Source of the DNA: Acidobacteriota bacterium
GTDB lineage: Bacteria; Acidobacteriota; Vicinamibacteria; Marinacidobacterales; Marinacidobacteraceae
Assembly: GCA_009840635.1 (NCBI GenBank)
Contig: VXNL01000063.1
Location: 1-64,000 of the forward strand
Direction of reading: 5' to 3'
Length of the DNA stretch: 64,000 nt
Shown: positions 1,401 to 20,767 of the stretch, piece after piece
Layout: each line of letters begins with the position of its first letter
Position numbering within the stretch: the first letter of the stretch is position 1
The notes under the pieces: model-generated
Database searches by the model: none
What the model saw: the letters and a program-made list of their open reading frames with translations, nothing else
What the model was told of the DNA's origin: nothing
Made by a program: the position numbers and the translations under genes

Positions 1401-1740
1401 CCACGAGGAGCGCATCCTGACTTCCGAACGCGACGAGTCGGCCCCGTTCCGGGCCTTTTCCTCCACCTCCTTTGAGGGCCGTTTCCGAACCGTCTCGCCG
1501 CGCAGCGGCGACGACATCCTGTCCGGTCTCGCCGCCGAGACCGGCGGGTTCTACTTCGCCCGCGCCACCGGGTTCCGAAGGCCGCTCGACCGCATCGAAG
1601 CCCGCAACCGGCTCTGGTACCGACTGACCCTTGTTGGAGAAACGGAAGCTGGCGAGAGAGAATCCGGAGTCCCGCAGGTCCGGGTCCCGGGGTGCGGCGA
1701 CTGCACCGTACTGCCGGCGCCGAGTTCCGCCCCGGAATAG
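1401..1740 (+). pseudogene. Decayed C-terminal copy of a VWFA-related protein
   Basis: The frame directly after the previous stop encodes a stretch that parallels the C-terminal part of the upstream gene. RDESAPFRAF matches RDEYSGPMRDY; SGDDILSGLAAETGG matches PGDDFLSSLASDTGG; and EARNRLWYRLTLV matches EYSNRLWYELSFE. There is no start codon or signal peptide of its own. The last part no longer resembles the family end motif (LRVVVRPGHV) and the frame stops at 1740. The simplest reading is a partial tandem duplication that has decayed. A readthrough or frameshift extension of the first gene is a less likely alternative. Confidence 0.6.
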
Positions 1741-1759
1741 GGCCGCGGGCACACTGCCC

Positions 1760-3706
1760 ATGCTCCGGAAACCCGACCCGGTGAAGACCCTCGGAGGGAC
1801 GAAACTCGCCTGCGGGCTGATCCTCCTCGGGGCCGTCCTTGCCGCCGCCGCGGCGACCGGCCAGACCTTCAGGTTCCGGGCCGCCGCCACCCGGGTCATC
1901 GTGGACGTGCTGGTGCTCGACGGCGACGGGAACCCCGTTCCCGGTCTGAGCCCCGGGGATTTCGAACTGTTCGAGGACGGAGAGGAGCAGCGGGTAGCGA
2001 GCCTCGACGTCGTGGACTGGGAACGCTACGAACTCGGGGAGGCCGTCCCGGACGACGTCCCGCCCGCGGCGCCGGAACTCGAGGCGGCCGACGCCGGCAA
2101 CGCGTCGCCCCGCCGTTTCGTGATCGTCTTCAACCGTCGCGGCGCCGACCCCGTGAACCTGCGGCGCGCCAAGCGGGGCCTCGAGGAATTCGTGTCCCAG
2201 CACATGGTGGACGGCGACGAAACCATGATTCTGGAGTTCGCCCACACGGTCCGGGTTCTCCAGGAGTTCTATTCCGGCAAGGAAGAGACGCTGGCCAACG
2301 TTCGCAGGATCGTCCCGGGGACCTTCCAGAGCCCCGTCGGTCCTGAAATTGACGCCCGCGACTCCTTCCAGATGCTCTACGCACTCGCGGAGGCGCTCGA
2401 GCGAGTGGAGGGACGCAAGATCGTCGTGTTCCTGTCCATGGACCTCCAGACCTTCGCGGACCCGCGCCAGGTGGTCGGCGAGATCGCCGGCACGGAAGTG
2501 GATGAGTTCCCGGGACGGCGCGCCCTCGACGAGACGAACTCGCTCCGGGATGCGATCCTCCAGTTGAACCACGCCAACGCCACGCTCTACGCGGTGAATC
2601 TCGCGGGGGTGTACGGCTTCGAAAACAACATTCTGAATCCTGCGCTGAACGCCTTCGACGTGATGGGGAATCCCCTGCCGGTCGAGCCGGACGACCACCC
2701 CCTGACGCGCATGAATGCCGCGGCCAACGTCCCGATGGAGGGCGGCACCGCCTCCCTCGCGGTGGCGACCGGGGGCACCTACTTCCCGAACCAGACCAAC
2801 TTCGCCGTCGCCCTGAACCGGATCGGCATCCAGAACCAGCTCTATTACCTCCTGTCGTTTTCACCGACGAAGACGGAACTGGACGGCGAGTATCGCCAGA
2901 TCGAGGTCCGGGTACGGGATCGGCCCGACCTGCGGGTCATCGCCCGGCCGGGCTATTTCGCGCGGCGCCGCGGCGACGTGGTCGAAGCGGCCGCGCGCGG
3001 CGACTACGACTACGCCTTCCCGGAGGACCTGAACACCTACGCATACCTGCTGAACCCCAGTCCACACGGCGCCTTCGGGGTGCTCGCCGCCGCACTGCCG
3101 GAGTCGTACCTGGAAGAGCCGGCCGAGGTGCGGCTCCGCGTGGTGGGGCCCGGCGGGGCGGTCCTGAGCGAGGCGGCCGGGCCGGTGGACATCCGGCGTT
3201 TCTGGGTTTCAACGCCCGCGGAGTTGCCGTCCGGAGAACACCGGCTCGAGCTGGTAGTGGAGCGGGGGGGAGAAAGGGTGCACGCGGGATCGTCCGCGTT
3301 GATCATCCCCTCCGGGTTCGGAGAGACCTTCTCGCTCTCGAGCGTTTTTCCTTTCGTCGCTGAGGCCCACGCACCGGAAGCGGTCGGCCCACCGGTGAGG
3401 CCCGTCGCCACATTTGCGCAGGCCGAGGACGCCCGGGTGGCCTTCTTCATCTTTCCGGGGCACGAGGATCCGGTCTCCCAGGTGCGGGTGGCCTACGAGA
3501 TCCGGAACGCCATTGGCGAAGTCGCCGTTGAGGCCGAACGGCCAGGGCGCTTCGATCTCGATCCGCAGCGCCTGGAGGGAACCCCGATCATGCTGCCGCT
3601 CCAGACCGGGCCCCTCCGGGCCGGGAGATACACCGCGGTGGTCCGGGTCACCGACGATCGCCGCAATCGTTCCGCAGTCGGGGAACTTCCCTTCCTGATC
3701 CGTTGA
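1760..3706 (+). CDS. VWFA-related Acidobacterial domain protein, long form
   Basis: A 648-residue secreted paralogue of the protein at 228. The start at 1760 gives a signal peptide (MLRKPDPVKTLGG, then a hydrophobic core ending about AATG); the open frame upstream to 1631 is not needed. Residues about 35-60 carry 'VLDGDGNPVPGLSPGDFEL'. The vWA-like core follows, with RRFVIVFNRRGADPVN again lacking DxSxS, and GRKIVVFLSMDLQTF. The C-terminal third (about 410-648) is an extra beta-rich extension rich in 'RLRVVGPGG' and 'ELVVERGG' strands that the first gene lacks, probably Ig-like. Likely an exported or surface protein; its ligand is unknown. Confidence 0.85.
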   Translation: MLRKPDPVKTLGGTKLACGLILLGAVLAAAAATGQTFRFRAAATRVIVDVLVLDGDGNPVPGLSPGDFELFEDGEEQRVASLDVVDWERYELGEAVPDDVPPAAPELEAADAGNASPRRFVIVFNRRGADPVNLRRAKRGLEEFVSQHMVDGDETMILEFAHTVRVLQEFYSGKEETLANVRRIVPGTFQSPVGPEIDARDSFQMLYALAEALERVEGRKIVVFLSMDLQTFADPRQVVGEIAGTEVDEFPGRRALDETNSLRDAILQLNHANATLYAVNLAGVYGFENNILNPALNAFDVMGNPLPVEPDDHPLTRMNAAANVPMEGGTASLAVATGGTYFPNQTNFAVALNRIGIQNQLYYLLSFSPTKTELDGEYRQIEVRVRDRPDLRVIARPGYFARRRGDVVEAAARGDYDYAFPEDLNTYAYLLNPSPHGAFGVLAAALPESYLEEPAEVRLRVVGPGGAVLSEAAGPVDIRRFWVSTPAELPSGEHRLELVVERGGERVHAGSSALIIPSGFGETFSLSSVFPFVAEAHAPEAVGPPVRPVATFAQAEDARVAFFIFPGHEDPVSQVRVAYEIRNAIGEVAVEAERPGRFDLDPQRLEGTPIMLPLQTGPLRAGRYTAVVRVTDDRRNRSAVGELPFLIR

Positions 3707-3765
3707 CCGGCGCCCGGCCGGCCCCGCTCGGCGAGTCCGCCGGCGCTGCGTTAACGTGGCGGCAA

Positions 3766-4551
3766 ATGCTCCCTTCAGCGACGGGCGTTTCTCGCCGTGG
3801 GACGTTCGCCTGTCTCGTCCTCGCTCTGATCGCGCTGGCGTGCGGGTCCGATACACCTTCCACGCCGGCGCCGACGCCTCCCCCGGCGCCTGCTCCCCCG
3901 GCTCCGCCTCCGCCGGCTCCGACGCCGATGCCGGAACCCGAGCCCGAGTGCCCGGATTCAGCGACCTACGCGGTGACGTTCCGGGCCGTCTGGAATGCGT
4001 CCTCGCACGGCAACCAGCCGCCCTTCCCGTCGGGAGCGCACTTTTCCCGCGTGGTCGGGGCAACCCATGCGCCGGAGGTTTCGTTCTGGAGTTCCGGCGG
4101 CATTGCCACTCCGGGCATCGAGAACATGGCTGAGACCGGCAGCGTGTCCTCGCTCTGCCGGGAAATCGACGCGGAGGCGGATCGCGGTGGGAGCACCACC
4201 TGCGTGAGAGGCTCGGAGTCTTCTTTCCCGTCGCCCGGATCGGCCAGGCTGTCCTTCGAAGCGACGGAAGAACTGCCGCTCATGACGCTGGTCTCGATGA
4301 TCGCGCCCAGCCCCGACTGGTTCGTCGGGGTGAGCGGGATGCCCCTGATGGAAGACCGTTGCTGGAAGGAACGGATCGAGGTGGAGTTGGTCGGCTACGA
4401 CGCTGGAACCGACAGCGGGGCGACGTTCACCGCGCGGGACGCCGACGTGACCCCCCACGAGCCGATCGGCCTCATCCGGGAGCTTCCCGCGGCGGTTCGG
4501 GAAGTGCCGTTCGCGACGCTGGTGCTGGCCCTCAGCGAAGAATCGGGATAG
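3766..4551 (+). CDS. Spondin_N-domain lipoprotein
   Basis: A 261-residue predicted lipoprotein: a hydrophobic leader ends in a lipobox (LIALAC), followed by a proline/alanine-rich spacer (about 35-65) that would hold the folded part away from the membrane. The rest matches the spondin N-terminal domain: 'YAVTFRAVWNASSH', 'FPSGAHFSRVVGATH', 'ATPGIENMAETGS', 'LVSMIAPSPDWFVGVSG' and 'YDAGTDSGATFTARD'. In animals this domain occurs in extracellular-matrix proteins; bacterial members are of unknown role. The start at 3766 fits the signal peptide; a TTG at 3703 overlapping the previous stop is an alternative. The next gene converges from the minus strand. Confidence 0.85.
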   Translation: MLPSATGVSRRGTFACLVLALIALACGSDTPSTPAPTPPPAPAPPAPPPPAPTPMPEPEPECPDSATYAVTFRAVWNASSHGNQPPFPSGAHFSRVVGATHAPEVSFWSSGGIATPGIENMAETGSVSSLCREIDAEADRGGSTTCVRGSESSFPSPGSARLSFEATEELPLMTLVSMIAPSPDWFVGVSGMPLMEDRCWKERIEVELVGYDAGTDSGATFTARDADVTPHEPIGLIRELPAAVREVPFATLVLALSEESG

Positions 4552-8976: not shown

Positions 8977-10032
8977 ATGAAGCTCACGAGAGAAATCCGT
9001 GAACTGTCCGATGGGCTGAAAGCCGCGTTCGAAGGATCGGACGTCACGAACCGGGTGCGGGACTTCGAAGGATGGACCGCCAGGGCATCCCGGGAGGACG
9101 ATGCCGACCAGGGGTACGACCACACGCGGACCGTCGAGGAGTACTACGACCTCTGTACCGGGTTCATGGTCTGGGGTTGGGGAGAATCCCTGCACTTCGC
9201 GCCGCTGTCGCCCGGCGAGAGTCTGGAGGACTCCAAGATCCGGCTGCAGAGACTCATGATCTCCAAGCTCGAACTGCGTCAGGGTATGACGGTCGTGGAT
9301 GTCGGCTGCGGGATCGGCGGTCCGATGCGCCGCGTCGCCCGAGAGGCCGGAGTCCGGGTTGTCGGGATCAACGCCAGTGAAGTGCAGCGCGACCGCGCAA
9401 TGCGCTTGAACGCGGCGGCGGGGCTCGCTGACGTGACCGACTGCCTTCGGTGCAGTTTCATGGACATGAGCGCGATCGCGGACCAGACGTTCGACCGCGG
9501 CTACGCCATCGAATCAACCTGCCACGCGGACGACAAGGCGGCCGCGTTCGCCGAGATCTACCGTGTCCTGAAGCCTGGGGCCCTCTTCTGGGGCCACGAA
9601 ATGTGCATGACGGACCTCTACGACCCCGAAAGCGAGCGGCACCGCGCCATCAAGCAGGAGCTCAAGCGCGGCATCGCGCTCAAGGAAATCGCCACGTTCG
9701 GGGAGGTCAACCGGGCGCTCGCAACCGCAGGATTCGAGGTCCTGGAGGGTGGTGACCTCGCCGCCCACGAGCACCGTCGGGAGACGCCGTGGTATCAGCC
9801 CATGGAAACCCCGCGCGGGCTGCCCGGCGGGACTCTTCGCCGGATTCCGCAGGTACGCAAGGCAATCCGGTGGGGAGTCCGGATGGCCGAGTTCCTCGGC
9901 GCGTTCCCGAGGGGCTCGGCGGAGGTCGTCGCGCTCCTGGACCGGACCGGGAACGCCTATGTCGCGGGGGGCAAGGCGGGGGTTTTCACGCCCCTCTACT
10001 GCTTCCTGGCGCGCCGGCCTCTTCGGGATTAG
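8977..10032 (+). CDS. Sterol C-24 methyltransferase (SMT/ERG6-like)
   Basis: A 351-residue SAM-dependent methyltransferase that aligns along its whole length with eukaryotic sterol 24-C-methyltransferases. Seen: the sterol-binding region I WGWGESLHF (about 67-75, yeast YGWGSSFHF); SAM motif VDVGCGIGGP (107-116); IESTCHA (178-184, yeast IEATCHA); EIYRVLKPG; the PWYQP segment (271-275, yeast PWYYP); and the SMT_C end GSAEVVALL, AGGKAGVFTPL and FLARRP. These C-terminal blocks separate it from cyclopropane-fatty-acid and generic methyltransferases. Region I differs just before the conserved core: MVWGWG instead of YEYGWG. No clear SD precedes the ATG. Known family role: C-24 alkylation of sterol side chains; the substrate here is inferred. 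Confidence 0.9.
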   Translation: MKLTREIRELSDGLKAAFEGSDVTNRVRDFEGWTARASREDDADQGYDHTRTVEEYYDLCTGFMVWGWGESLHFAPLSPGESLEDSKIRLQRLMISKLELRQGMTVVDVGCGIGGPMRRVAREAGVRVVGINASEVQRDRAMRLNAAAGLADVTDCLRCSFMDMSAIADQTFDRGYAIESTCHADDKAAAFAEIYRVLKPGALFWGHEMCMTDLYDPESERHRAIKQELKRGIALKEIATFGEVNRALATAGFEVLEGGDLAAHEHRRETPWYQPMETPRGLPGGTLRRIPQVRKAIRWGVRMAEFLGAFPRGSAEVVALLDRTGNAYVAGGKAGVFTPLYCFLARRPLRD

Positions 10033-10068: not shown

Positions 10069-13000
10069 TCAACCGTTCGCCTCGGCGGCCAGTTCTCGCC
10101 GGGCCGAGGTGAGGCGCAGGTGGATCGAGGAAAGCGCGGGCACCAGAAACATGACCATCGCCGTGGTGAAGAGGATGCCGCAGCCGATCGAGGCAGAGAA
10201 GGGAACGAAGAACTGCGCCTGAATCGCGTCCTCGAGAATCAGGGGGGTGAAGCCCAGGAAGGTCGTCAGGGAAGTCAGCATGATCGGGCGGAAGCGTCCC
10301 TTCGCGCCCTCGATGATCGCGGTTCGCACCGGGACTCCATCCCGGAGCTTCTGGTCGGTGAAATCGATCATCACCAGGGAGTCGTTGACGACCACGCCCG
10401 CCAACCCGAAGATCCCGACAAAGGACTCCGCGCTCACGGCGACGCCCAGCATCCAGTGACCCAGGATCACGCCGACGAACCCGAACGGGATGATCGCCAT
10501 GACGATGAACGGTTTGGTGTAGGAACGCAGGGGAATGGCCAGCAGCGCGAAGATCAGGAGCAGCGCGATCGCGAATCCGCGATAGAGACCGCCCAGGGAG
10601 TCGAGTTGCTGCTGTTGTTCCCCTCCGAACCTGTACGTGAGTTCCGGGTTCTCGGCGATGAGGCCCGCCAGGATGGTGTTTTCCAGAATGTCGTTGGCGG
10701 TTGCGGCGGAAACCACAACGGGATCCACGTCAGCGCTCACCGTGACCACGCGCTGGCCGTCCTGGCGCCGGATGGCCGGCGGCGAGGTGCCCGAACTCAG
10801 CGCGGCCACCCGGCCGACCGGCACGTCGGCGCCGGCGGGCGTGTGGAGCCGGTAGCCCTCGATGTCGGTAACCGAGTCGCGCTGCCCCTCGGGTAGCCGC
10901 ACGTAAACGCGAACCTCGTCACGTCCTCGCTGTACCCGGACGGCTTCGGCGCCGAAGAAGGCGGCTCTCGTCTGCCGGGCCAGATCGTCCAGCGTGAGGC
11001 CGAGCGTGCGCGCTTCGGGGAGCATTCCCACCTGGATTTCCGGAACCCCGGGAGTGTGGTCCGAGCGGATGTCGAAGACGCCTCCGACTCCGCCGAGACC
11101 GGCCACGGTGGAATTCGCGATCTCGTTGAGGCGTTCCGGATCCGGGTGAGACAGCGCCGCCTCGACCGGGTTGCCCAGCGTATAGATCTGGCTGATGTAG
11201 GTGATCGCGCGCGCCTGAGGCAGCTCCCCCACCTCCTCGCGCCATGCCTGCACGACGTCTCCCGAAGTGATGCGCCGCTGCTGCGCGCTCAGGAGCTTGA
11301 ACTCGATGGTGGCGACATTGGCTTCCGGGTTCAGGGTGGGCGAGGGGTTGAGGCCCCCGGTCTCGAGCCGTGACCGGTGGCCGACCACGACCGTGACGCC
11401 GGACAGCAGCGGTGGCGCGTCGGCTGGCCGGCCGTCGGAAAGCCGCTCCACGGCCCGGCGGCCGGCCGCTTCCAGGTGTTGCGCCACGGCGTACGTCTGC
11501 GGCGCGGTCGTTCCGTCCGGCATCTCGAGGGTGGCGATGGCGAAGTCGCCTTCGACCTCCGTTGCGAAGGTGGTCGGGACGATGCCGGCCGGAAGGAGGG
11601 AAACGCTCAGGATGAGCAGGGCAACGGCCCCCGAGACCGTCACCCCGGGCCGGTCCGTCGCGAACTGGATCCCGCGGTCCAGGGGCCCCTGGATGAAGCG
11701 GTTCAGCAGGGAATCGACACGATTCTGGATCCGGGCGACGGATCGTTCCAGACGCGTACCAGGCACCCAGTCCGGGCCATGCAGATGATGGGACAGATGG
11801 TTGGGCAGCACCAGCAACGATTCGATCAGCGAAAAGAGCAGCGTGGCGATGGCGACGATCGGCAGTGCCTTCCACACCTCTCCGAACCCCGCGGGTATGA
11901 AGAGCAGGGGAAGGAACGCCACGATCGTCGTCAGCACCGCGAAGACCAGCGGCACCCTGATGCGTCGCGCCCCCCGGATCGCAGCGATGACCCCCGGCGT
12001 GCCGCGCTTTCGTTCCTCGTGGATGTGCTCGGACACGACGATCGCATCGTCCACGACGATGCCGATGGCGAGTACGAAAGCGAAAAGCGACACCTCATGG
12101 AGCGGGATGTCGAACAGCATCATGGCGGCCAGGGCGCCGATCGCGGACACGCCGAGGCCGACGGCGACCCAGAAAGCCAGCCGAAGTTGGAGAAACAGAC
12201 CCAGCGCGATCAGGACCAGCAACAGCCCCAAGGCTCCGTTCTTGAGAAGAAGGAGGGCGCGTTCCGTGAAGACCGAAGAGTCGTCGTTCCAGATGCTGAT
12301 GCCCACGCCAGCCGGGAGCGAGGGGACTACCTCGTTCGCGACGTGGTCGCGAACGGCGCGCGCCACGTCCATCACCCTCTCACCGTCGGCTTGCGAAACC
12401 TCGACGAACACGGCGGGAAGGCCCTGGTGCCGCACGAGCAAACCCGAGTCCTCGAAGCCGTCGCGGACCTCGGCAATGTCACCCAGGCGCACCACGGTGC
12501 CGTCCTCGCCGCCGAGGATGATGATGTCCTCGAAATCCTGCTGGTCGTAGCTCTTGCCGAGGGTCCGGATCCGCACCTGGGACCGCTCGGTATCGATGCT
12601 GCCCGCGGACAGGTCAAGGGAACCGCGGCGGATCGTGTTGGCGATGTCGGTCAGGGTGAGCCCAAGAGCCCGCAGCCGCTCGAGCGGCACTTCGATCGAG
12701 ATCTCGTAGTTGCGCACCCCGCTGGTCTCGACCAGGGACACGTTCGGGAGCGCTGCGAGATCGTCCTCGAGGCGGTAGGCGAGCTCCTTCAGCGAGCGCT
12801 CGGGAACGTCGCCGTAGAGCACTAGCCGCATCATGCTCTGGGCGTTGGTCATTTCCCGGACCTGGGGCCGTTCGGCCCCACCCGGGAACGTCTGGATTCG
12901 CCCCACCGCCGACTCGATCTCGTCTTTCTTGGCGCCCATGTCCGTACCCGAGTTGACCTCGACCCTGACGGACGCCATCCCCGGGGCCGCTACGGACCGG

Positions 13001-13272
13001 ACCGTCTTCACGTCGGCCAGCCCCCGGACCTCGTCCTCGATCTTGACGACGATGGCCTCCTCCACCTCCTCGGGCGTTGCGCCGGGGAACGGCACCGAGA
13101 TCTCGAACTGGTTGAAGGGCACCGTGGGCCACGCTTGCTGCTCGAGGCCGGTCAGCGACACGAGGCCCACCGCGAGGATCCCGAACATCAGCAGATTGGA
13201 CGCCACGCCGTTGCCCGCCATGTAGGCGATGGGTCCTCCGGGTTCGGCGTGGTTGCTTCGGTTGGAACTCAT
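10069..13272 (-). CDS. RND-family inner-membrane transporter (AcrB/HAE1-like)
   Basis: A 1067-residue RND permease with the full two-fold layout: TM1 near residue 30, a large periplasmic loop, six TM helices (about 340-540), a second TM and loop, and the final helices from about 870. The proton-relay pair is present in GIVVDDAIVVSEHIHEE. It ends 37 nt from the convergent SMT gene and starts 67 nt after the P450-fusion gene on the same strand. Its likely fusion protein and outer-membrane channel are at 18030-20767, on the far side of the oxygenase genes. The substrate is unknown; context suggests a hydrophobic lipid or sterol. Confidence 0.9.
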   Translation of the reverse strand: MSSNRSNHAEPGGPIAYMAGNGVASNLLMFGILAVGLVSLTGLEQQAWPTVPFNQFEISVPFPGATPEEVEEAIVVKIEDEVRGLADVKTVRSVAAPGMASVRVEVNSGTDMGAKKDEIESAVGRIQTFPGGAERPQVREMTNAQSMMRLVLYGDVPERSLKELAYRLEDDLAALPNVSLVETSGVRNYEISIEVPLERLRALGLTLTDIANTIRRGSLDLSAGSIDTERSQVRIRTLGKSYDQQDFEDIIILGGEDGTVVRLGDIAEVRDGFEDSGLLVRHQGLPAVFVEVSQADGERVMDVARAVRDHVANEVVPSLPAGVGISIWNDDSSVFTERALLLLKNGALGLLLVLIALGLFLQLRLAFWVAVGLGVSAIGALAAMMLFDIPLHEVSLFAFVLAIGIVVDDAIVVSEHIHEERKRGTPGVIAAIRGARRIRVPLVFAVLTTIVAFLPLLFIPAGFGEVWKALPIVAIATLLFSLIESLLVLPNHLSHHLHGPDWVPGTRLERSVARIQNRVDSLLNRFIQGPLDRGIQFATDRPGVTVSGAVALLILSVSLLPAGIVPTTFATEVEGDFAIATLEMPDGTTAPQTYAVAQHLEAAGRRAVERLSDGRPADAPPLLSGVTVVVGHRSRLETGGLNPSPTLNPEANVATIEFKLLSAQQRRITSGDVVQAWREEVGELPQARAITYISQIYTLGNPVEAALSHPDPERLNEIANSTVAGLGGVGGVFDIRSDHTPGVPEIQVGMLPEARTLGLTLDDLARQTRAAFFGAEAVRVQRGRDEVRVYVRLPEGQRDSVTDIEGYRLHTPAGADVPVGRVAALSSGTSPPAIRRQDGQRVVTVSADVDPVVVSAATANDILENTILAGLIAENPELTYRFGGEQQQQLDSLGGLYRGFAIALLLIFALLAIPLRSYTKPFIVMAIIPFGFVGVILGHWMLGVAVSAESFVGIFGLAGVVVNDSLVMIDFTDQKLRDGVPVRTAIIEGAKGRFRPIMLTSLTTFLGFTPLILEDAIQAQFFVPFSASIGCGILFTTAMVMFLVPALSSIHLRLTSARRELAAEANG

Positions 13273-13339: not shown

Positions 13340-15361
13340 TCACACGGGTTTCGGGATCTGAGCGACGCGGAACTTCAGTTTCCTGTTGGGGGCCAGGGTC
13401 GGGAACGGGTTGATTCCCATCTTGTAGTTGCCGGGTACCACTTCGAGCTTCAGGTGGTACGCGATGAGCAGCACGTTGACGGCCATCTGAAGTTCCACCC
13501 ACCGGTGGCCGAGGCACATGTGCGTCCCGAGGCCGTAGGGCGCGTAGGCCCCCGGTTGCAGATGTTCCGCCCGGTCCGGCAGGTACCGATCGATATCGAA
13601 CTTCAACGGGTTCGGGTACAGGTCCTCGGAGTAGTGCGGCGCCGTCTGGCAAATCAGCAACATCGTCTTCGGCGGTATCTCGTAACCGCTGACGATGCAC
13701 TCGTTCATGACTGTTCTCAACTGCCAGGGAATCACCGGGTACATCCGCGAAGACTCCATGCAGAGACGCACCGTGACGTCGATGCTCTGGTGATTGAAGT
13801 CATCTCCCCCCAGTTCACGACCGTTGCCGAAGAGCGACTCGGCCTCGCTCCGGACCTTCGCGTACACGTCGGGGTTTCGAACCATGTTGTAGACGGTGAA
13901 GGCCAGTCCGCTGCCGAGATAGATGCTGGCGACCATGGAAGCCACGAACGGAAAGGTGAGGTCCGTTTCGGGAAGGAACTGTGGGTCTCTCTTATGGAGA
14001 TCGAGAATCGCGTCGGCCAGATCCCGGGGCTTTCCCTTGCGCAGCGCCGTCGTATGTCCCGCGGTGATCGCCTCCTGGAGTTCCCTGACGCGCTTCCCGT
14101 ACCGTTTCATTCTTGGGGTGGACAGCATGAAATCCGGCAATGCGCCCTGGACCCGCGTTATGAGCGCACGGTGTTCAAAGGCCAACAGTTCGTCGACATA
14201 GTGGCTGCAATCCACTCCCATCGCGAAATTGGAGATCTGACTGCTGATGTGGTTCTGAAAGCTTTCGGTGGCGCGGAAGACATCCCCTTCCTTCCAACGG
14301 CTCAGCGATTTCCGGCAGTCGTCGATCAGCTCCGGCAGCCGCCGCGCCAGCGTGGCGCGGGAATATGCGGTCTGGAGCTCCTTGCGCATTCGATAGTGCT
14401 CCGCGCCATCCATTCCGGGCAGACTCCGGGATGCGCCAAACGCGTGTTCCAGCCCTTCGATGTAGTCCTTCGAGCGGAGATAGAACCGCCCGTGCCGGTT
14501 GACCCAGTGATTGACATCGGCGCCCATCAACGAAACCAGGGGCTTGCCGCGGATCTTGAAGGGCATTCTGACGACCGGCCCGTGTTTCCGATAAATGCCG
14601 TTCATCGCCTTCGAGATGTTGCCCGAGAGGAAGTCGCGCTGTAGCAGCACGGCGAGATACCCAGGCCTGGGAATGGGCTTGGTCTGAACGACGCGACGGG
14701 TCTTGGGCCTCGCCGTGCTGTCCCTCACGGCGGCTGCGACGGTCCGTCCGATGAGGTCCAGCTTCGCGACGAGTTCGATCCGGGCGAGCCGCTCCTGGTA
14801 GTCCTCTTCCTCCAGCAGCAGCTTGAAGCCGCCGCAGGTGTGCATCAGGGCGACCAGGATGGCGTCCCGCGGGTCCGGAATCTCGTCGTTCAGGATGACG
14901 CTCAGGATCCTCACCTTGGATTCCCGGCGGGTCGCGACAGCCTGGGTCGGAAACGTCCCGGAACGGGCGACGGAGCGCGAGAGCCCCCAGAATCCGCCGC
15001 TCTCGTGGGTCAGGATGTTCCGCTCCACCAGGCGCTCGAGGGCGGCCGCGACGATCTCGTCGGCCTGGCGGGTGTTCCGTTCGATCCAGAACTGGGCGTC
15101 CGATTTTTCGTCGGATTCGGCGATGTCCTTGAGCGTCGGGTCGAGCAGCTCGTCTCCGGTCGGCGTGGGATCGACGAGGTACAACCGCTCCAGGTCGGTC
15201 TCGATGCGACGCTCCAGGGCGAGGTCGGCGAGCACGGCGCCGGCCATGACACAGGAGAAGTTCCAGTTCGGAACCATTTCGAGGTAGCCGCTCTGCTCGT
15301 CCAGCATGAGGAGGATCAACTCCTCGGCGATGCGGATCGGAAACCGGGTGCCCTCGCTCAT
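13340..15361 (-). CDS. GPP34 (GOLPH3-like)-cytochrome P450 fusion protein
   Basis: A 673-residue protein with two modules in one frame. Residues about 8-225 match the GPP34/GOLPH3 family: RIAEELILLMLDEQSGYL, NWNFSCVMAGAVLADLALE and PTPTGDELLDPTLKDI, with a Trp at the position of the PI4P-contacting Trp of human GOLPH3. Residues about 235-673 are a cytochrome P450: C-helix GMDGAEHYRMRKEL, ExxR as ESSR (536-539), and heme loop YGLGTHMCLG with thiolate Cys616, Tyr replacing the usual Phe. The I-helix oxygen-activation motif (AGxDT) is replaced by VASIYL (about 477-482). There is no N-terminal TM anchor. Start at 15361 has GGAGG about 10 nt upstream. Known: GPP34 proteins bind membranes; inferred: it docks the P450 on lipid. 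Confidence 0.88.
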   Translation of the reverse strand: MSEGTRFPIRIAEELILLMLDEQSGYLEMVPNWNFSCVMAGAVLADLALERRIETDLERLYLVDPTPTGDELLDPTLKDIAESDEKSDAQFWIERNTRQADEIVAAALERLVERNILTHESGGFWGLSRSVARSGTFPTQAVATRRESKVRILSVILNDEIPDPRDAILVALMHTCGGFKLLLEEEDYQERLARIELVAKLDLIGRTVAAAVRDSTARPKTRRVVQTKPIPRPGYLAVLLQRDFLSGNISKAMNGIYRKHGPVVRMPFKIRGKPLVSLMGADVNHWVNRHGRFYLRSKDYIEGLEHAFGASRSLPGMDGAEHYRMRKELQTAYSRATLARRLPELIDDCRKSLSRWKEGDVFRATESFQNHISSQISNFAMGVDCSHYVDELLAFEHRALITRVQGALPDFMLSTPRMKRYGKRVRELQEAITAGHTTALRKGKPRDLADAILDLHKRDPQFLPETDLTFPFVASMVASIYLGSGLAFTVYNMVRNPDVYAKVRSEAESLFGNGRELGGDDFNHQSIDVTVRLCMESSRMYPVIPWQLRTVMNECIVSGYEIPPKTMLLICQTAPHYSEDLYPNPLKFDIDRYLPDRAEHLQPGAYAPYGLGTHMCLGHRWVELQMAVNVLLIAYHLKLEVVPGNYKMGINPFPTLAPNRKLKFRVAQIPKPV

Positions 15362-15540: not shown

Positions 15541-16920
15541 GTGGGTGAAGCGAAGGGCGGGGCGCCGAGAAGGGTTGCCATCGTCGGTGGGGGCGCCTCG
15601 GGACTTGGGACGGCGTGGGCGCTCAACCACCACCCGGATCGTTTCGACTTTCGACTCTTCGAAGCGCAGGCGCAGCTCGGCGGCAATGCGATCACGGCGG
15701 ACATGCCGCAGGACGACGGCAGCACGATCCCGTTCGATATCTCGGTCACCGCGTGCATACCGTCGGCATACCACCACTTTGTCCTGCTCATGCAGCAGCA
15801 CGGCATCGAACTGCTCGAAACCCGGTTCAACTACAGCGTGAAGTACGGGGGCCGGATCTACGCTCACGATTTCGATTCGGACATCCGGAAGGAGTTGCAA
15901 TCCGAAATCGAGAGGTTCCAGCGCCTCCTGCGACGTCTTCACTGGTTCGGCCGGCTCAACCTCACTAGGTCGAAGCTGATCGGCGCTCTCAACCCGTTCA
16001 ACTACGTCAGCATGGGCGCGCTGCTGAACCTGGGCAGGTACTCGGGAGACTTCCGCTACAAGGTCCTGAAGCCCATGTTCGTCAACTTCCTGATGGCGAC
16101 GAACGTGTTCGACATGCCGGCGTCGCTCTTTTCACGGTATCTGGACTTCTTCGACATCGAGACCGCGACGCCGATGCAAACCTGGGACCAGGGCACCCGG
16201 CGGATCTATCGCGAGCTGTCCGCCAGCTTTCGGGACCGGATCTACCTGAACCGGCCGGTGCGAAAGGTCTACCGGAGCCGTAACGAGGTTGTCGTGGAGG
16301 ACGAGAACGGAAAGACCGAGACCTTCGATGACGTCGTCTTCGCGTGCAACGCGAACCAGACGCTGATGCTCCTCGACAGGCCGACCCGGCTGGAGGGTTG
16401 GCTCCTCTCCTCGATCCGATACGAAAGCGAACTGCACAACCACACGGTCGTGCATTCCGACGCCTCCGTTCTACCCGACAACGAAGCCAGGCCCCTCGCC
16501 ACCCGGAGCAACCACATCGAGCAGTACGGAGCGCGGCCCGACAACTACGAAATCACCTACATCATGCACAACCAGCAGCCGTGGGCGAACACGTCGGACA
16601 AGCCGTGCCTCGTCACCTACAACCCGATCAGCCGTATCGACGAGAGCAGGATCGTCAAGAAGTGGTGGTTTCAGCACATCGTGCACGACGTGCCTCACGT
16701 CGCCTTCCTGACCCAGTTGTTCCGCTTCGTCCAGGGGAAGAGGCGGACCTGGCACTGCGGCGCGCACACGCTGGTCAACAGCCAGGAGACCTGCTTCGTG
16801 TCCGGCCTCGTTACGGCAAGACAACTCGGCGCGGACTATCCGTTCCAGGACCCGGAGGCCAGGAAGTGGTTCAACTTCTACGGCCGCGTGATGTACGGCT
16901 GGAGGTTCAGGAGCGCCTGA
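15541..16920 (+). CDS. FAD/NAD-binding oxidoreductase (amine-oxidase-like, COG2907 type)
   Basis: A 459-residue flavoprotein beginning with GTG. The dinucleotide-binding motif VAIVGGGASGLGTAWAL (12-28) is followed by FEAQAQLGGNAITAD, the ribose-binding Glu and GG doublet of amine-oxidase-fold enzymes, and the end has 'CFVSGLVTARQLGADYPF', the second FAD-contact region. The best family match is the predicted NAD/FAD-binding oxidoreductases often found beside lipid methyltransferases. It is divergent from the P450 fusion and converges on the Rieske gene with a 21-nt gap. Probably oxidises or desaturates the same lipid substrate; the exact reaction cannot be read from sequence. Confidence 0.8.
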   Translation: MGEAKGGAPRRVAIVGGGASGLGTAWALNHHPDRFDFRLFEAQAQLGGNAITADMPQDDGSTIPFDISVTACIPSAYHHFVLLMQQHGIELLETRFNYSVKYGGRIYAHDFDSDIRKELQSEIERFQRLLRRLHWFGRLNLTRSKLIGALNPFNYVSMGALLNLGRYSGDFRYKVLKPMFVNFLMATNVFDMPASLFSRYLDFFDIETATPMQTWDQGTRRIYRELSASFRDRIYLNRPVRKVYRSRNEVVVEDENGKTETFDDVVFACNANQTLMLLDRPTRLEGWLLSSIRYESELHNHTVVHSDASVLPDNEARPLATRSNHIEQYGARPDNYEITYIMHNQQPWANTSDKPCLVTYNPISRIDESRIVKKWWFQHIVHDVPHVAFLTQLFRFVQGKRRTWHCGAHTLVNSQETCFVSGLVTARQLGADYPFQDPEARKWFNFYGRVMYGWRFRSA

Positions 16921-16941: not shown

Positions 16942-17937
16942 CTAGTAGAACTGTCTGCAGTAGCGCCGGTACAACCCGATCTCGCCGTCGGCCCGGCTGA
17001 GGCTCGGGCGCGGCCGGTACCTCTTGCGGCTCCAGATCTCCACGTCCTGCATAACGTCGTGCCTTTGAAAGAACAGCATCAGCTTGTTCATGGTCTCGGT
17101 GCGGAGAGCCGGCGGCAGGAACCGCAGTCCGACGATCGGCCGCTTCGGTTTCCGGATCCTTCGCAACTGGCCGACCAGCACCAGGTCGATGAGCGTGCCG
17201 TCGACGGGCGTCGCAAGGACCCAGAGGCGTCCGTCCATTCCGATGGAGCGCTCGTGGAACTCCACGAGCGAATACCCCAGCCCGATGACGTGCGCGGTGG
17301 CGGAGACGTCGAACGTGAGATTGATGACTCCGGCGATGCGCTGCGTGCGCCTGAAGTCAAAGCAGCTCCGCAGATACGCGCCGTCCACCGTTACCTTCCC
17401 GACCCGGCCGACGTTGCCGTAGCCGTGCACGTACCGGAGGTGCGCCATGTCCACGGCGTTCTCACTCGTTTCCTGGGGGTGCCCCCGAAACCGGAGAGTC
17501 CGGAACTCCGGTTCGCACCAGTCGCCTCCGGCCGGCGGGTCCTCGGGAAGGCTCCACTGGGGGGGACGTCCATCGATTCCCCACCAGGCGAAGACGATGC
17601 CGAGGACTTCCCGCGTCTCGAAGGACTTGAGCTTCGCGGTCTTCGGCGGCGGGGCGAACGGCGTGGCGACGCACTGGCCGCTGGCGTCGAACTCGTAGCC
17701 GTGGAACGGACAGACCAGACGGCCGTCCCGCACCCGGCCGCCGGCGGCCGGTCCCAGTTCGGATCCGAGGTGAGGACAGACCGACTCGGCCACCGAGACC
17801 CGGCCGGCATCGTCACACCAGGCGACGATCTGCTTCCCCATCCAGGTCTTCTGGATCAGCTTTGTCTTCCGCAGGGATTCCCGACTGGTGACGAAGTACC
17901 AACCCTCCGGAAACGGGGAGAGCGTGTTTTCACTCAT
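16942..17937 (-). CDS. Rieske non-heme iron oxygenase, KshA/DAF-36-like
   Basis: A 331-residue oxygenase. The Rieske [2Fe-2S] ligands are in CPHLG (Cys54, His56) and CPFHGYEFD (Cys76, His79). The mononuclear iron site is NAVDMAHLRYVHG (Asn160, Asp163, His166, His171), in the arrangement of steroid oxygenases such as 3-ketosteroid 9-alpha-hydroxylase and the cholesterol 7-desaturase DAF-36/Neverland. Start 17937 is preferred because a G-rich SD lies about 5 nt upstream; an ATG at 17952 is possible. No ferredoxin reductase gene is next to it, so electrons must come from elsewhere. It follows the efflux gene pair on the same strand. Reaction on a sterol is inferred. Confidence 0.85.
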   Translation of the reverse strand: MSENTLSPFPEGWYFVTSRESLRKTKLIQKTWMGKQIVAWCDDAGRVSVAESVCPHLGSELGPAAGGRVRDGRLVCPFHGYEFDASGQCVATPFAPPPKTAKLKSFETREVLGIVFAWWGIDGRPPQWSLPEDPPAGGDWCEPEFRTLRFRGHPQETSENAVDMAHLRYVHGYGNVGRVGKVTVDGAYLRSCFDFRRTQRIAGVINLTFDVSATAHVIGLGYSLVEFHERSIGMDGRLWVLATPVDGTLIDLVLVGQLRRIRKPKRPIVGLRFLPPALRTETMNKLMLFFQRHDVMQDVEIWSRKRYRPRPSLSRADGEIGLYRRYCRQFY

Positions 17938-18029
17938 GCGTTCCCCCCGCATTCTCGCCCAGGGTTCGTGAATGCTCCCGTCCCACCCCGACGGATCTGA
18001 CTCGCTGGCGATCGAACTGCGTTCGAGCG

Positions 18030-19241
18030 CTACTCCGCGGTCCGCACCCTGAGTCCCTCGGTCGCGAACTGGATGCCACTCAGCACGACCTCCTGGCCTG
18101 CCCGTAGCCCGCCGGTGACATACACAGTGTCGTCGAAGCGCTGCAGGACGCGCACCGGAACGATCGTCACCGCCTCGCCGTCCACCGCCCAGACTTCGTT
18201 GCCCGGCCGCAGCCCCAGCCGCGTTATCCGAAAGTACTCCTCCGGCGCGATCCCCGAGATCTCGACGTCGGCGAACTGGCCGACCAGGAGCGGCGGCGAG
18301 CCGGCGGCCGGGAGCGCCGCGGCGTCCTCTCCGTCTCCCACCGGCTCCCCGCCTCGCAGGGGATGCGGAACACGCACGATCACCTCGAGAGTGCGCGTCG
18401 CCTCATCCAGCGCCGGCTCGACGCGATCCACGTAGCCGTCCCAGGCGTAGCCGCCGGTCGCGTGGTCGACGGTGACCCGGGCGGCGACCCTCCGGTCTGT
18501 GGTTCCGGGCCTCAGGTCCCAGAGACCGGGCACGAGCGCCGCCTCGGCATCGGACAGGGGAACGACGATCTCGACCGCATCGGAGGCGTAGATCTGCCCC
18601 ACGCCCACCCCGGCGGTCACGAACTGGCCGACCCCCACGTTCTCGGCACGCACCACGGCGTCAAAGGGCGCCCGGACCTCCGTCCGCGAGAGGAAGAGCT
18701 CGGCTTCCGCGAGAACGGCCCGCGCCCGTGCAACCGCGGCCCGCGCAGCCTCGAGTTGCGGCTCCCATTGCGCCAGCGGATTGGCCTCCCCTCTTTCGGC
18801 GTCTCCGCGGCGGCCCCGGAACGCTTCGTACTGCTCGCGGGCGATCCGCGCTTCCTCCTCGACCTTCAGCAGTTCCACCTGCTGCACGGCGACGCCGGAG
18901 CGCGCCTGATCCACCCGGAAGCGGTAGTCGGCGTCGTCGAGCCGGAAAAGCAACTGTCCCTCGCTGACCCGGCCGCCGCTTTCGAACGCGGGATCGACGG
19001 AGACGATCCGGCCGCTCACGCTGGCGGCGACGTCCACCTGAACGCGCGGCCGCACGGTTCCCGCGCCGTGGACGGGGATCGCTCCGGACCCGGCAACCGC
19101 CGGTGCCGTCGTCACGAACGGAACCTGGGAGGGCGGCTCGCGCCGCTCGGGCTCGGGCCGCTGCGCGATCAGCAGGGTGGCGATCCCGAGCGACCCCAGC
19201 AGGATGACCGCCGCCAGGATGAACCCCCGGGCCCGGCTCAT
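18030..19241 (-). CDS. RND periplasmic adaptor (membrane fusion protein)
   Basis: A 403-residue HlyD/AcrA-type adaptor. One N-terminal hydrophobic segment (GFILAAVILLGSLGIATLLIA) anchors it in the inner membrane. Then come the lipoyl half-motif 'VSGRIVSVDPAFESGGRVSEG', a coiled-coil hairpin (about 105-190), the second lipoyl half 'VRAPFDAVVRAENVGVGQFV', and the beta-barrel and membrane-proximal domains. Its ATG overlaps the TGA of the upstream channel gene (ATGA, 19238-19241), indicating translational coupling. It should link the channel to the RND permease at 10069-13272. Confidence 0.9.
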   Translation of the reverse strand: MSRARGFILAAVILLGSLGIATLLIAQRPEPERREPPSQVPFVTTAPAVAGSGAIPVHGAGTVRPRVQVDVAASVSGRIVSVDPAFESGGRVSEGQLLFRLDDADYRFRVDQARSGVAVQQVELLKVEEEARIAREQYEAFRGRRGDAERGEANPLAQWEPQLEAARAAVARARAVLAEAELFLSRTEVRAPFDAVVRAENVGVGQFVTAGVGVGQIYASDAVEIVVPLSDAEAALVPGLWDLRPGTTDRRVAARVTVDHATGGYAWDGYVDRVEPALDEATRTLEVIVRVPHPLRGGEPVGDGEDAAALPAAGSPPLLVGQFADVEISGIAPEEYFRITRLGLRPGNEVWAVDGEAVTIVPVRVLQRFDDTVYVTGGLRAGQEVVLSGIQFATEGLRVRTAE

Positions 19242-20767
19242 CGCTCCGCCGGTCCCCGCGCCCGGGCGTCCGGCGCGCTCGCCGGCGCGCTGGCCATCTC
19301 GTCCGGGACGGTCCAGGCGCCCCCCAGGGCCCGATGGATGGCCAGACGGGCGAGCGCCAGGTTCCGCGCCGAACTCGCGAGCGCCGACTCCGCATCCAGG
19401 AGTCTGGCGTTCGCATCGAGCAGGTCCTCATAGCCGCTGATCCCCGACTCGTAGCGCCTGGAGTGGACGTCCACCGAGGCCCGGGCCTCCTCGCGCTGGG
19501 CGGCGAGAGATTCCTGCCGGCGGCCTTCGTTCCTCAGAGTGGCCAGGGCCGACTCCACCTCGTTGACCGCCGTCACGACGGTCCGGCCGTAGGCCGCCGC
19601 CAACTCGTCGAAACGGGCTTCGGCCAGTTCCACGCCGCTCGCGAGCCGGCCCCCGTCGAACACCGGACGGAGCAGGTTGCCGGCGAGGTTCGTGAACCAC
19701 TGCTTGACGTCGAAGAGGCCTCCGGCGTCCGTGCTCCGGAGTCCAATGGACCCGGAGAGCGAGAGTTGCGGCATCAGGGCGGCACGCCGGGCTTCGACCG
19801 TGTGTCCGGCGGCTTCCAGCCGGTGACCGGCGGCCTGCACGTCCGGCCGCTGCGACAGGAGGTCGGCCGGAATGCCGGCCGGCACGGGTTCGGCCGGGGT
19901 TTCCGGCGACAGGGATTCGGGAAGGATCGCCGCGACATCCTCCCGGTAGCCTCCGAGCAGCACGGCGAGCCGGGACTCCGTCTCGGCGAGTTGGTTTTCG
20001 ATCTGCGGCACGCCGGCCTGCGCCCCCGAGAGGGCCTGGCGGACCCCGTGCAACTCGAGCGAAGCCGCAAGCCCGCGTTCGTAGCGGCTCTCCACCAGCC
20101 GCTCGCGTTCCTCGAGCAGTTCCACCTGCCCTCGAGCGATGGCGAGTTGTTGCCGCAGGTGGCCGATTTCGAAGTAGGCGGAGATCGTCTCGGCGAGGAT
20201 CCCGATGCGGGCGACCCGCAGGTCGAACTCCGAGGCGAGCAACTCGGATCCCGCCGCGAGTGCGGTGTGCCTTACGCGGCCCCAGAAGTCCGCCTCGTAG
20301 GCGAAGTCGGCGCCCAGGGTGTAGGTCGGAAAACCCAAGCGGTCCGGCAGGGGAAAATCAAGACCCAGGTCCTCGAGCTGGGCGCCGATCGCGGCATTCG
20401 TCGGCAGGTCGAAGGTTTCCGCGGTGAGGCTCGCTCCGACCGTGGGCAGGATCGCCGCGTCGGCCAGCCGGGCTCGCGTCCGGGCCTGCTCGACCCGCGC
20501 CACCGCTTCCGCTACCGAGAAGTTGGAGTCCAGTACCGATGCGACCACGTGGTCGAGCGCGGGATCGGCGAACGCCCGCCACCACTCCTGCGCCTGGCGG
20601 GCCCCGGCGGCCGGACCCTCGGCGAAGTCAGCGGGCAACCCCGGAGCCGCCTCCTGCGACAGGTCGGGGGAACTTCCCGACCGCAGGGCACAACCACCGG
20701 CCGCGAGGAACACAAGTCCCCCGCCGAGAAGGATCGCCACCAGGAGAACGCGATTCCTCAAGCCCAC
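19238..20767 (-). CDS. Outer-membrane efflux lipoprotein (NodT/TolC family)
   Basis: A 509-residue outer-membrane factor. The leader ends with the lipobox LAAGGC, as in NodT/OprM-type channels. Two OEP repeats follow: the first from 'WWRAFADPALDHVVASVL', the second after 'IPADLLSQRPDVQAAGHRLEAA', the hallmark segment between the repeats, each with long coiled-coil helices. It is the first gene of a minus-strand run channel, adaptor, Rieske oxygenase. Confidence 0.9.
   Translation of the reverse strand: MGLRNRVLLVAILLGGGLVFLAAGGCALRSGSSPDLSQEAAPGLPADFAEGPAAGARQAQEWWRAFADPALDHVVASVLDSNFSVAEAVARVEQARTRARLADAAILPTVGASLTAETFDLPTNAAIGAQLEDLGLDFPLPDRLGFPTYTLGADFAYEADFWGRVRHTALAAGSELLASEFDLRVARIGILAETISAYFEIGHLRQQLAIARGQVELLEERERLVESRYERGLAASLELHGVRQALSGAQAGVPQIENQLAETESRLAVLLGGYREDVAAILPESLSPETPAEPVPAGIPADLLSQRPDVQAAGHRLEAAGHTVEARRAALMPQLSLSGSIGLRSTDAGGLFDVKQWFTNLAGNLLRPVFDGGRLASGVELAEARFDELAAAYGRTVVTAVNEVESALATLRNEGRRQESLAAQREEARASVDVHSRRYESGISGYEDLLDANARLLDAESALASSARNLALARLAIHRALGGAWTVPDEMASAPASAPDARARGPAER

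Follow-up and report, generated by a model that had tools for sequence, protein, structure and literature searches.

A single polypeptide in which a GPP34 (GOLPH3-like) domain is followed by a cytochrome P450 is encoded in the window (the whole 64,000-nucleotide stretch of DNA that was analyzed). The fusion is real and conserved, and it is undescribed as far as the open-access literature shows. Its gene is linked to genes for a transporter, a Rieske oxygenase, an FAD oxidase and a sterol-methyltransferase (SMT)-like protein, and it is distributed patchily across about ten phyla. We propose, with confidence and doubt in roughly equal measure, that the fusion is a cytosolic, peripheral-membrane P450 within a mobile module for sterol tailoring and export that is found mainly in sponge-dwelling bacteria. 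The fusion and its parts are located as follows.

13340 to 15361, minus strand: GPP34-cytochrome P450 fusion, 673 aa (stop included)
14723 to 15331, minus strand: GPP34 (GOLPH3-like) domain, residues 11-213 (Pfam, whole-genome match, profile and Foldseek)
14660 to 14710, minus strand: inter-domain linker, ca. residues 218-234, with a low-confidence stretch at 220-224 (AlphaFold pLDDT)
13412 to 14650, minus strand: cytochrome P450 domain, residues 238-650

The open reading frame runs from 15361 to 13340 over 673 codons with no internal stops; it starts with the ATG at 15361, and a GGAGG sequence is located about 10 nt 5' of this codon. The original prediction, made from the sequence alone, had placed the uninterrupted frame and the order of its domains correctly (the coding strand, which it did not give, is minus), and the motifs that it quoted (PTPTGDELLDPTLKDI, LADLALE, ESSR and YGLGTHMCLG) were all located in the translation. 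Pfam GPP34 (PF05719) matched residues 11-213 (E = 2.7e-34; 119.4 bits, cut-off 29.1), where the domain had been expected in residues 8-225, and Pfam p450 (PF00067) matched residues 238-650 (E = 2.2e-35; 122.7 bits, cut-off 22.8). An AlphaFold2 model of the full fusion was built on a 73-sequence alignment. Its mean pLDDT was 87.6, and a weak linker at residues 220-224 separated two confident domains; the GPP34 part modelled alone had a pLDDT of 88.8. Structure prediction had been suggested as a check, and AlphaFold followed by Foldseek returned a GOLPH3/Vps74 fold for the first domain and a P450 fold for the second. With the GPP34 model as the query, only GOLPH3 and Vps74 were found below an E-value of 0.001 (TM up to 0.71, 9qpq), and the sequence profile of the domain reached GOLPH3 at 4e-13. 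The source genome is a 3.58-Mb metagenome-assembled genome (MAG) that is 92% complete; in a profile search of all of it, the fusion was the only GPP34 protein.

A search of other genomes for the same domain order had also been suggested as a check, and this order was found in 85 near full-length homologues (41-96% identity) in 80 independent records. The fusion-bearing records include some that are titled chromosome (OX638295.1, OX638346.1, OX638327.1, OX638379.1 and OX638341.1). An assembly join or a frameshift is ruled out by the 85 homologues, which lie on independent contigs and on records titled chromosome. The earlier statement that no fusion of GPP34 to a P450 had been described was borne out by a literature search for the two together, in which none was found; the search covered open-access papers only, and other papers may already mention it.

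A scan of GTDB species genomes yielded 80 loci, the best 80 of at least 382, all of them near full-length fusions. Among 149 related genomes, the fusion was present in the same genus at 83-98% identity, with paralogues, and also in other genera and in another family of the class. In a sample of 396 genomes from the phylum, it was detected in 19, from 4 of 211 genera (E ≤ 1e-30); its distribution within the phylum is therefore patchy. According to NCBI titles, the carriers represent about ten phyla: Acidobacteriota, Pseudomonadota, Chloroflexota, Rhodothermota, Bacteroidota, Gemmatimonadota, Nitrospinota, Nitrospirota, Binatota and Latescibacterota. In a maximum-likelihood tree, strongly supported branches called for at least six changes for Pseudomonadota, at least four for Acidobacteriota and at least three for Chloroflexota; because paralogy explains part of these changes, they were not converted to a count of horizontal transfer events. 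From the sequences compared, it is likely that the fusion was spread by horizontal transfer. The carriers are mostly MAGs of sponge symbionts. Bin names of the form jk18x denote Ircinia symbionts, and such names are printed in PMC9531527; the codes RHO, COS, CAR, IRC, CO36 and SB06 fit the host species of PMC8163846, an assignment that rests on a reading of the codes.

No transmembrane (TM) helix was evident in residues 1-240 of the fusion, where the highest 19-residue hydropathy window was 1.2. The GOLPH3-type hydrophobic hairpin (GGFWxLS, residues 122-128) was kept; in 28 sampled members, F124 was conserved in 26, W125 in 21 and L127 in 27. Peripheral docking on a membrane is reasonable because the hairpin is kept at F124 and L127. 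GOLPH3 itself contains R90, R171 and R174, which we take to be its PI4P-binding arginines (numbering of the full-length protein, as in chain 9qpq). By profile alignment, these residues correspond to A40, D101 and V104 of the fusion. Arg or Lys occurred at neither of the first two sites in any of the 28 members, which had A, V or I at the former and D, E, L or H at the latter; the third site was Arg in three. The equivalent of GOLPH3 W81 was subject to a one-residue ambiguity between two alignments, and W33 was conserved in 24 of the 28. To our knowledge, bacteria generally lack PI4P. On the residues, docking via PI4P was rejected. Thus, of the original proposal that GPP34 docks an anchorless P450 on membrane lipid, the docking itself is in keeping with the missing TM helix and the retained hairpin, and the route through a PI4P pocket is not supported. 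The further idea that GPP34 stands in for the TM helix of eukaryotic sterol P450s finds no backing either: some relatives of the P450 lack GPP34 and show no obvious TM helix. With the hairpin kept, docking of the GPP34 domain on either the membrane or the pump is plausible.

The GPP34 domain could instead be a protein-protein adaptor, acting in dimerization or in docking to a redox partner or the pump, with no lipid contact and no role in membrane anchoring. We accord this reading substantial but minority weight. GOLPH3 binds the cytosolic tails of client enzymes, and this precedent, the missing PI4P arginines and the strong linkage of the fusion gene to a pump all favor an adaptor; the strong conservation of F124, W125 and L127 in the hairpin argues for the membrane instead. 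GPP34 genes that stand alone were also observed in acidobacterial genomes (L143, 6660-7334; L146, 6374-6973; L039, 1720-2514); they are 39-45% identical to the domain of the fusion. The genes around stand-alone GPP34 genes (permease, HMGL-like, GFO/IDH and PQQ genes) revealed no shared theme, and those in L143 no obvious common client.

In the P450 domain, the heme-ligating C616 and the ExxR motif (E536 and R539) were invariant in 73 sequences. The I-helix reads ASIYL (residues 478-482), such that Y481-L482 replace the acid-alcohol pair (D/E-T), and Tyr occupied the acid position in 85 of 85 homologues. Most homologues had an ASxYLG-like motif, and those of a second paralogue group had AGHYxG; in fusions from Vicinamibacteria that are more distant, the usual GxDT or GxET was present. 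Tyr at the acid position suggests unusual chemistry, i.e. a step that may differ from standard monooxygenation, and loss of the acid-alcohol pair could denote peroxygenase-like, isomerase-like or substrate-assisted catalysis. In four cases (L084, L093, L098 and L107), ASxYLG-like and AGHYxG paralogues were located near each other in a single locus, an arrangement that suggests two successive steps.

The best PDB sequence match of the P450 was the CYP51 of M. capsulatus, followed by cholesterol 24-hydroxylase, and the top fold matches of the full model in Foldseek were CYP102 types, CYP51 and CYP120. The fold does not fix the substrate, because CYP102 and CYP120 matched as well as CYP51 did. 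Membership in CYP51 was rejected: ASIYL is found in place of the AGxHT I-helix motif. Identity to CYP51 by structure alignment was only about 19-20%, and AGHHT in CYP51 contrasts with ASIYL in the window protein, although it resembles the AGHYT of one fusion paralogue group. Further, the M. capsulatus enzyme bears a C-terminal ferredoxin, whereas the window P450 bears an N-terminal GPP34 domain.

The genes that surround the fusion gene in the window are listed below.

8977 to 10032, plus strand: sterol C-24-methyltransferase-like protein with Sterol_MT_C (Pfam)
10069 to 13272, minus strand: AcrB-type RND permease (ACR_tran, 9.7e-150), adjacent in relatives
15541 to 16920, plus strand: FAD amine-oxidase-family enzyme (LkcE-like), divergent from the fusion gene and a conserved neighbor
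16942 to 17952, minus strand: Rieske oxygenase with KshA_C (Pfam)
18030 to 19241, minus strand: RND periplasmic adaptor (HlyD/MFP), upstream of the Rieske gene
19238 to 20767, minus strand: outer-membrane efflux channel (NodT/OEP), 4-bp overlap with the adaptor gene

On the same strand, 67 bp separate the fusion gene from the permease gene that follows it, and the two are a probable operon. The channel, adaptor and Rieske genes follow one another on one strand, the last starting 77 bp after the adaptor gene; in this layout, part of a single tripartite pump is read in the same direction as each of the two oxygenase genes. The functional picture in the original prediction captured the fusion and overlooked this context of sterol enzymes and an RND pump, which is the most telling on function. 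Sterol_MT_C and KshA_C each had one match in the source genome, the former at 8977-10032 (47.3 bits, cut-off 21.7) and the latter in the window Rieske gene. The Rieske protein exceeded the cut-offs for both Rieske (60.4 bits) and KshA_C (87.4 bits), and its best solved relatives were 3-ketosteroid 9alpha-hydroxylases (3.2e-24). Assignment as the sterol C-4 demethylase SdmA was rejected (38.6 bits vs. an NCBIfam equivalog cut-off of 600). For the SMT-like protein, the best PDB matches were other methyltransferases (MitM), with a 24-sterol methyltransferase lower in rank (4.9e-6), and the permease was nearest to multidrug-efflux subfamilies in NCBIfam. Elsewhere in the window, a protein with a Spondin_N domain (3703-4551, plus strand; 4.5e-40) is encoded beside two VWA-like proteins (153-1400 and 1631-3706); Spondin_N is an animal-type extracellular domain, here in an apparent sponge symbiont. 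A DUF5107 and TPR protein is encoded at 27412-30348 (plus strand); the other strand there has an open frame of 742 aa, for which no Pfam match was obtained.

Neighborhoods were counted in the 46 loci that extended 8 kb or more to either side of the fusion gene. An RND-superfamily transporter was present in 43 of these, a Rieske gene in 37, an SMT gene in 24 and an FAD oxidase gene in 23; at least one of the three enzymes occurred in 41. The AcrB-type pump was replaced in 24 loci, mainly of Chloroflexota, by an MMPL protein with matches to Patched (48.6 bits) and Sterol-sensing (46.8 bits), both over the cut-off, and another MMPL type was found in six further loci. That different pumps fill the same slot strongly indicates that transport is part of what the module does. 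Recurrent neighbor clusters unmatched to window genes were mostly shadow ORFs, the exceptions being the two MMPL pumps. In a second acidobacterial genome (G266), the RND, SMT, fusion and FAD oxidase genes form one run on a single strand, spaced about 50-70 bp apart, and the Rieske gene is opposite. Divergent fusions from Vicinamibacteria (32-38% identity) lacked most of the module.

Some loci contained broken genes. The FAD oxidase gene of L022 (9916-10622; L043 is on the same contig) was matched only as several broken pieces, beside fusion, Rieske and pump genes that look intact. Between the intact fusion and SMT genes of L147 (9438-10236; G213:C92) lie the C-terminal fragment of a second fusion and an RND fragment, traces of a rearrangement or duplication. 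L029 (9682-7751; G007:C12) contains a second, divergent fusion paralogue with an internal TAG; this paralogue is intact in a sister genome (G006; L030, G006:C88).

The module is probably a toolkit, common to its carriers, with which sterols are altered and moved, and the substrate, order of steps, mode of docking and direction of transport that we infer are these. The substrate would be a sterol, or a triterpenoid close to one, located in the inner membrane, and carriers that lack an oxidosqualene cyclase (OSC) would obtain it from the sponge host or from neighboring cells. By means of its hydrophobic hairpin and not PI4P, the GPP34 domain would keep the P450 attached to the inner membrane or to the cytosolic part of a partner, e.g. 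the pump. The P450, Rieske and FAD enzymes would oxidize or desaturate the sterol, the methyltransferase would alkylate its side chain, and the RND pump, AcrB-type and tripartite in diderms and Patched/MMPL-type in Chloroflexota, would send the product outward. Counting against a sterol module are the presence of an SMT gene within reach in only about half of the loci and the fact that some carriers do have an OSC or a squalene-hopene cyclase (SHC). The fold matches to CYP102 and CYP120, the PDB ranking of the SMT-like protein, the NCBIfam placement of the permease and the divergent Vicinamibacteria fusions that lack most of the module weigh on the same side. A farther-reaching version is offered tentatively, as a possibility that we rather doubt: the GOLPH3 fold would provide PI4P-independent docking on membrane or pump for a Tyr-I-helix P450 within a transferred module, with which symbionts would take, remodel and export host sterols and thus make part of the unusual sterols of sponges.

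The tripartite AcrB-type pump, with its adaptor, channel and multidrug-efflux-like permease, the co-directional oxygenase and pump genes and the spread over phyla within one habitat would also suit detoxification. The P450 and Rieske enzymes would then oxidize membrane-active sponge steroids, saponins or terpenoid defenses, GPP34 would hold the P450 where such toxins partition, and the pump would expel the products. We consider this unlikely: the SMT-like gene, linked in about half of the loci, is a biosynthetic rather than a detoxifying partner, and the Patched/SSD-type pump of Chloroflexota points to sterol lipids. Steroid catabolism, in which the KshA-like Rieske enzyme and the P450 would begin degradation of the rings or side chains of host sterols for carbon, appears more improbable still. 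It draws on the relationship of the Rieske protein to 3-ketosteroid 9alpha-hydroxylases and on sponge microbes that are enriched in steroid-degradation genes and have KshA clusters of their own (PMC5790920); however, the Pfam-scanned neighborhood held no ring-cleavage, beta-oxidation or ketosteroid dehydrogenase genes, and the methyltransferase and pump are better fitted by tailoring and export.

The source of the sterol was sought among cyclases and epoxidases. No match to the squalene epoxidase family was found in 16 Vicinamibacteria, and a full OSC was absent from the source and sister genomes; cyclase matches in the source genome were only partial and weak (a cyclase-domain match at G000:C103 was partial, with 34 bits). 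De novo sterol synthesis in the source genome was rejected on the lack of an epoxidase and a full cyclase, and exogenous sterols are the likely substrate, because the source and sister genomes lack both. Of 22 carriers from many phyla, 10 had a full cyclase; the best match had a DCTAE motif (oxidosqualene type) in four and DDTA (squalene-hopene type) in six. No cyclase match was found in two records titled chromosome that bear the fusion and its module (OX638295.1, 2.8 Mb; OX638346.1, 4.3 Mb). Many carriers would therefore need sterol from outside, and many of the carriers' sterols likely come from the animal host. That the module is instead the late part of an endogenous pathway, as are the CSGs of Ircinia symbionts (ERG24-CYP51-LSS), is the least probable reading, for which the habitat and overlapping phyla shared with the CSGs (PMC9531527) and the four DCTAE-type carriers speak, and against which stand the genomes and chromosome-titled records just described.

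Tailoring and export of sterols by such a module would bear on an old question, namely which organisms make the odd side-chain sterols of sponges, which serve as animal biomarkers in the rock record. The module supplies defined genes in many genomes with which it can be asked whether symbionts modify host sterols. Bacterial GOLPH3-family proteins have no settled function, and the fusion affords a direct handle on their role, since it has its client enzyme covalently bound to the domain. The invariant Tyr that takes the place of the P450 acid clearly poses a biochemical puzzle.

Several known systems resemble the module in part. For bacterial SMTs of sponge symbionts, alkylation of sterols in vitro is reported (PMC10070321); these SMTs are the same kind of methyltransferase, with Sterol_MT_C, beside other sterol genes. 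Unlike the window module, those clusters are named by erg and sdm homologues, and the main text of that paper contains no P450, GPP34 or Rieske. In Ircinia symbionts the CSGs, and in Melophlus msb, are clusters for de novo synthesis that include a cyclase (PMC9531527, PMC7074536). They are alike in being sterol genes spread horizontally among sponge symbionts of overlapping phyla and in including SMT and Rieske enzymes, but the CSGs have LSS, ERG24 and CYP51, whereas the window module is without a cyclase and has an RND pump and the GPP34-P450 in addition. No mention of GPP34 was found when PMC9531527 was searched for it, nor of GPP34 or the window P450 in the passages found in the sterol-cluster literature. 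In M. capsulatus, BstA is an RND/MMPL protein that binds sterols (PMC10942540). BstABC and HpnN share with the module an RND-superfamily inner-membrane transporter that adjoins sterol or triterpenoid genes; they differ in that the window pump is AcrB-type and tripartite, with an adaptor and a channel, and proteins of the BstB and BstC kinds were not seen. With GOLPH3 and Vps74, the window protein shares the same domain by Pfam, profile and fold, hydrophobic hairpin included; it differs in having A, D and V for R90, R171 and R174, and, whereas GOLPH3/Vps74 binds separate clients, the window GPP34 is covalently joined to an enzyme.
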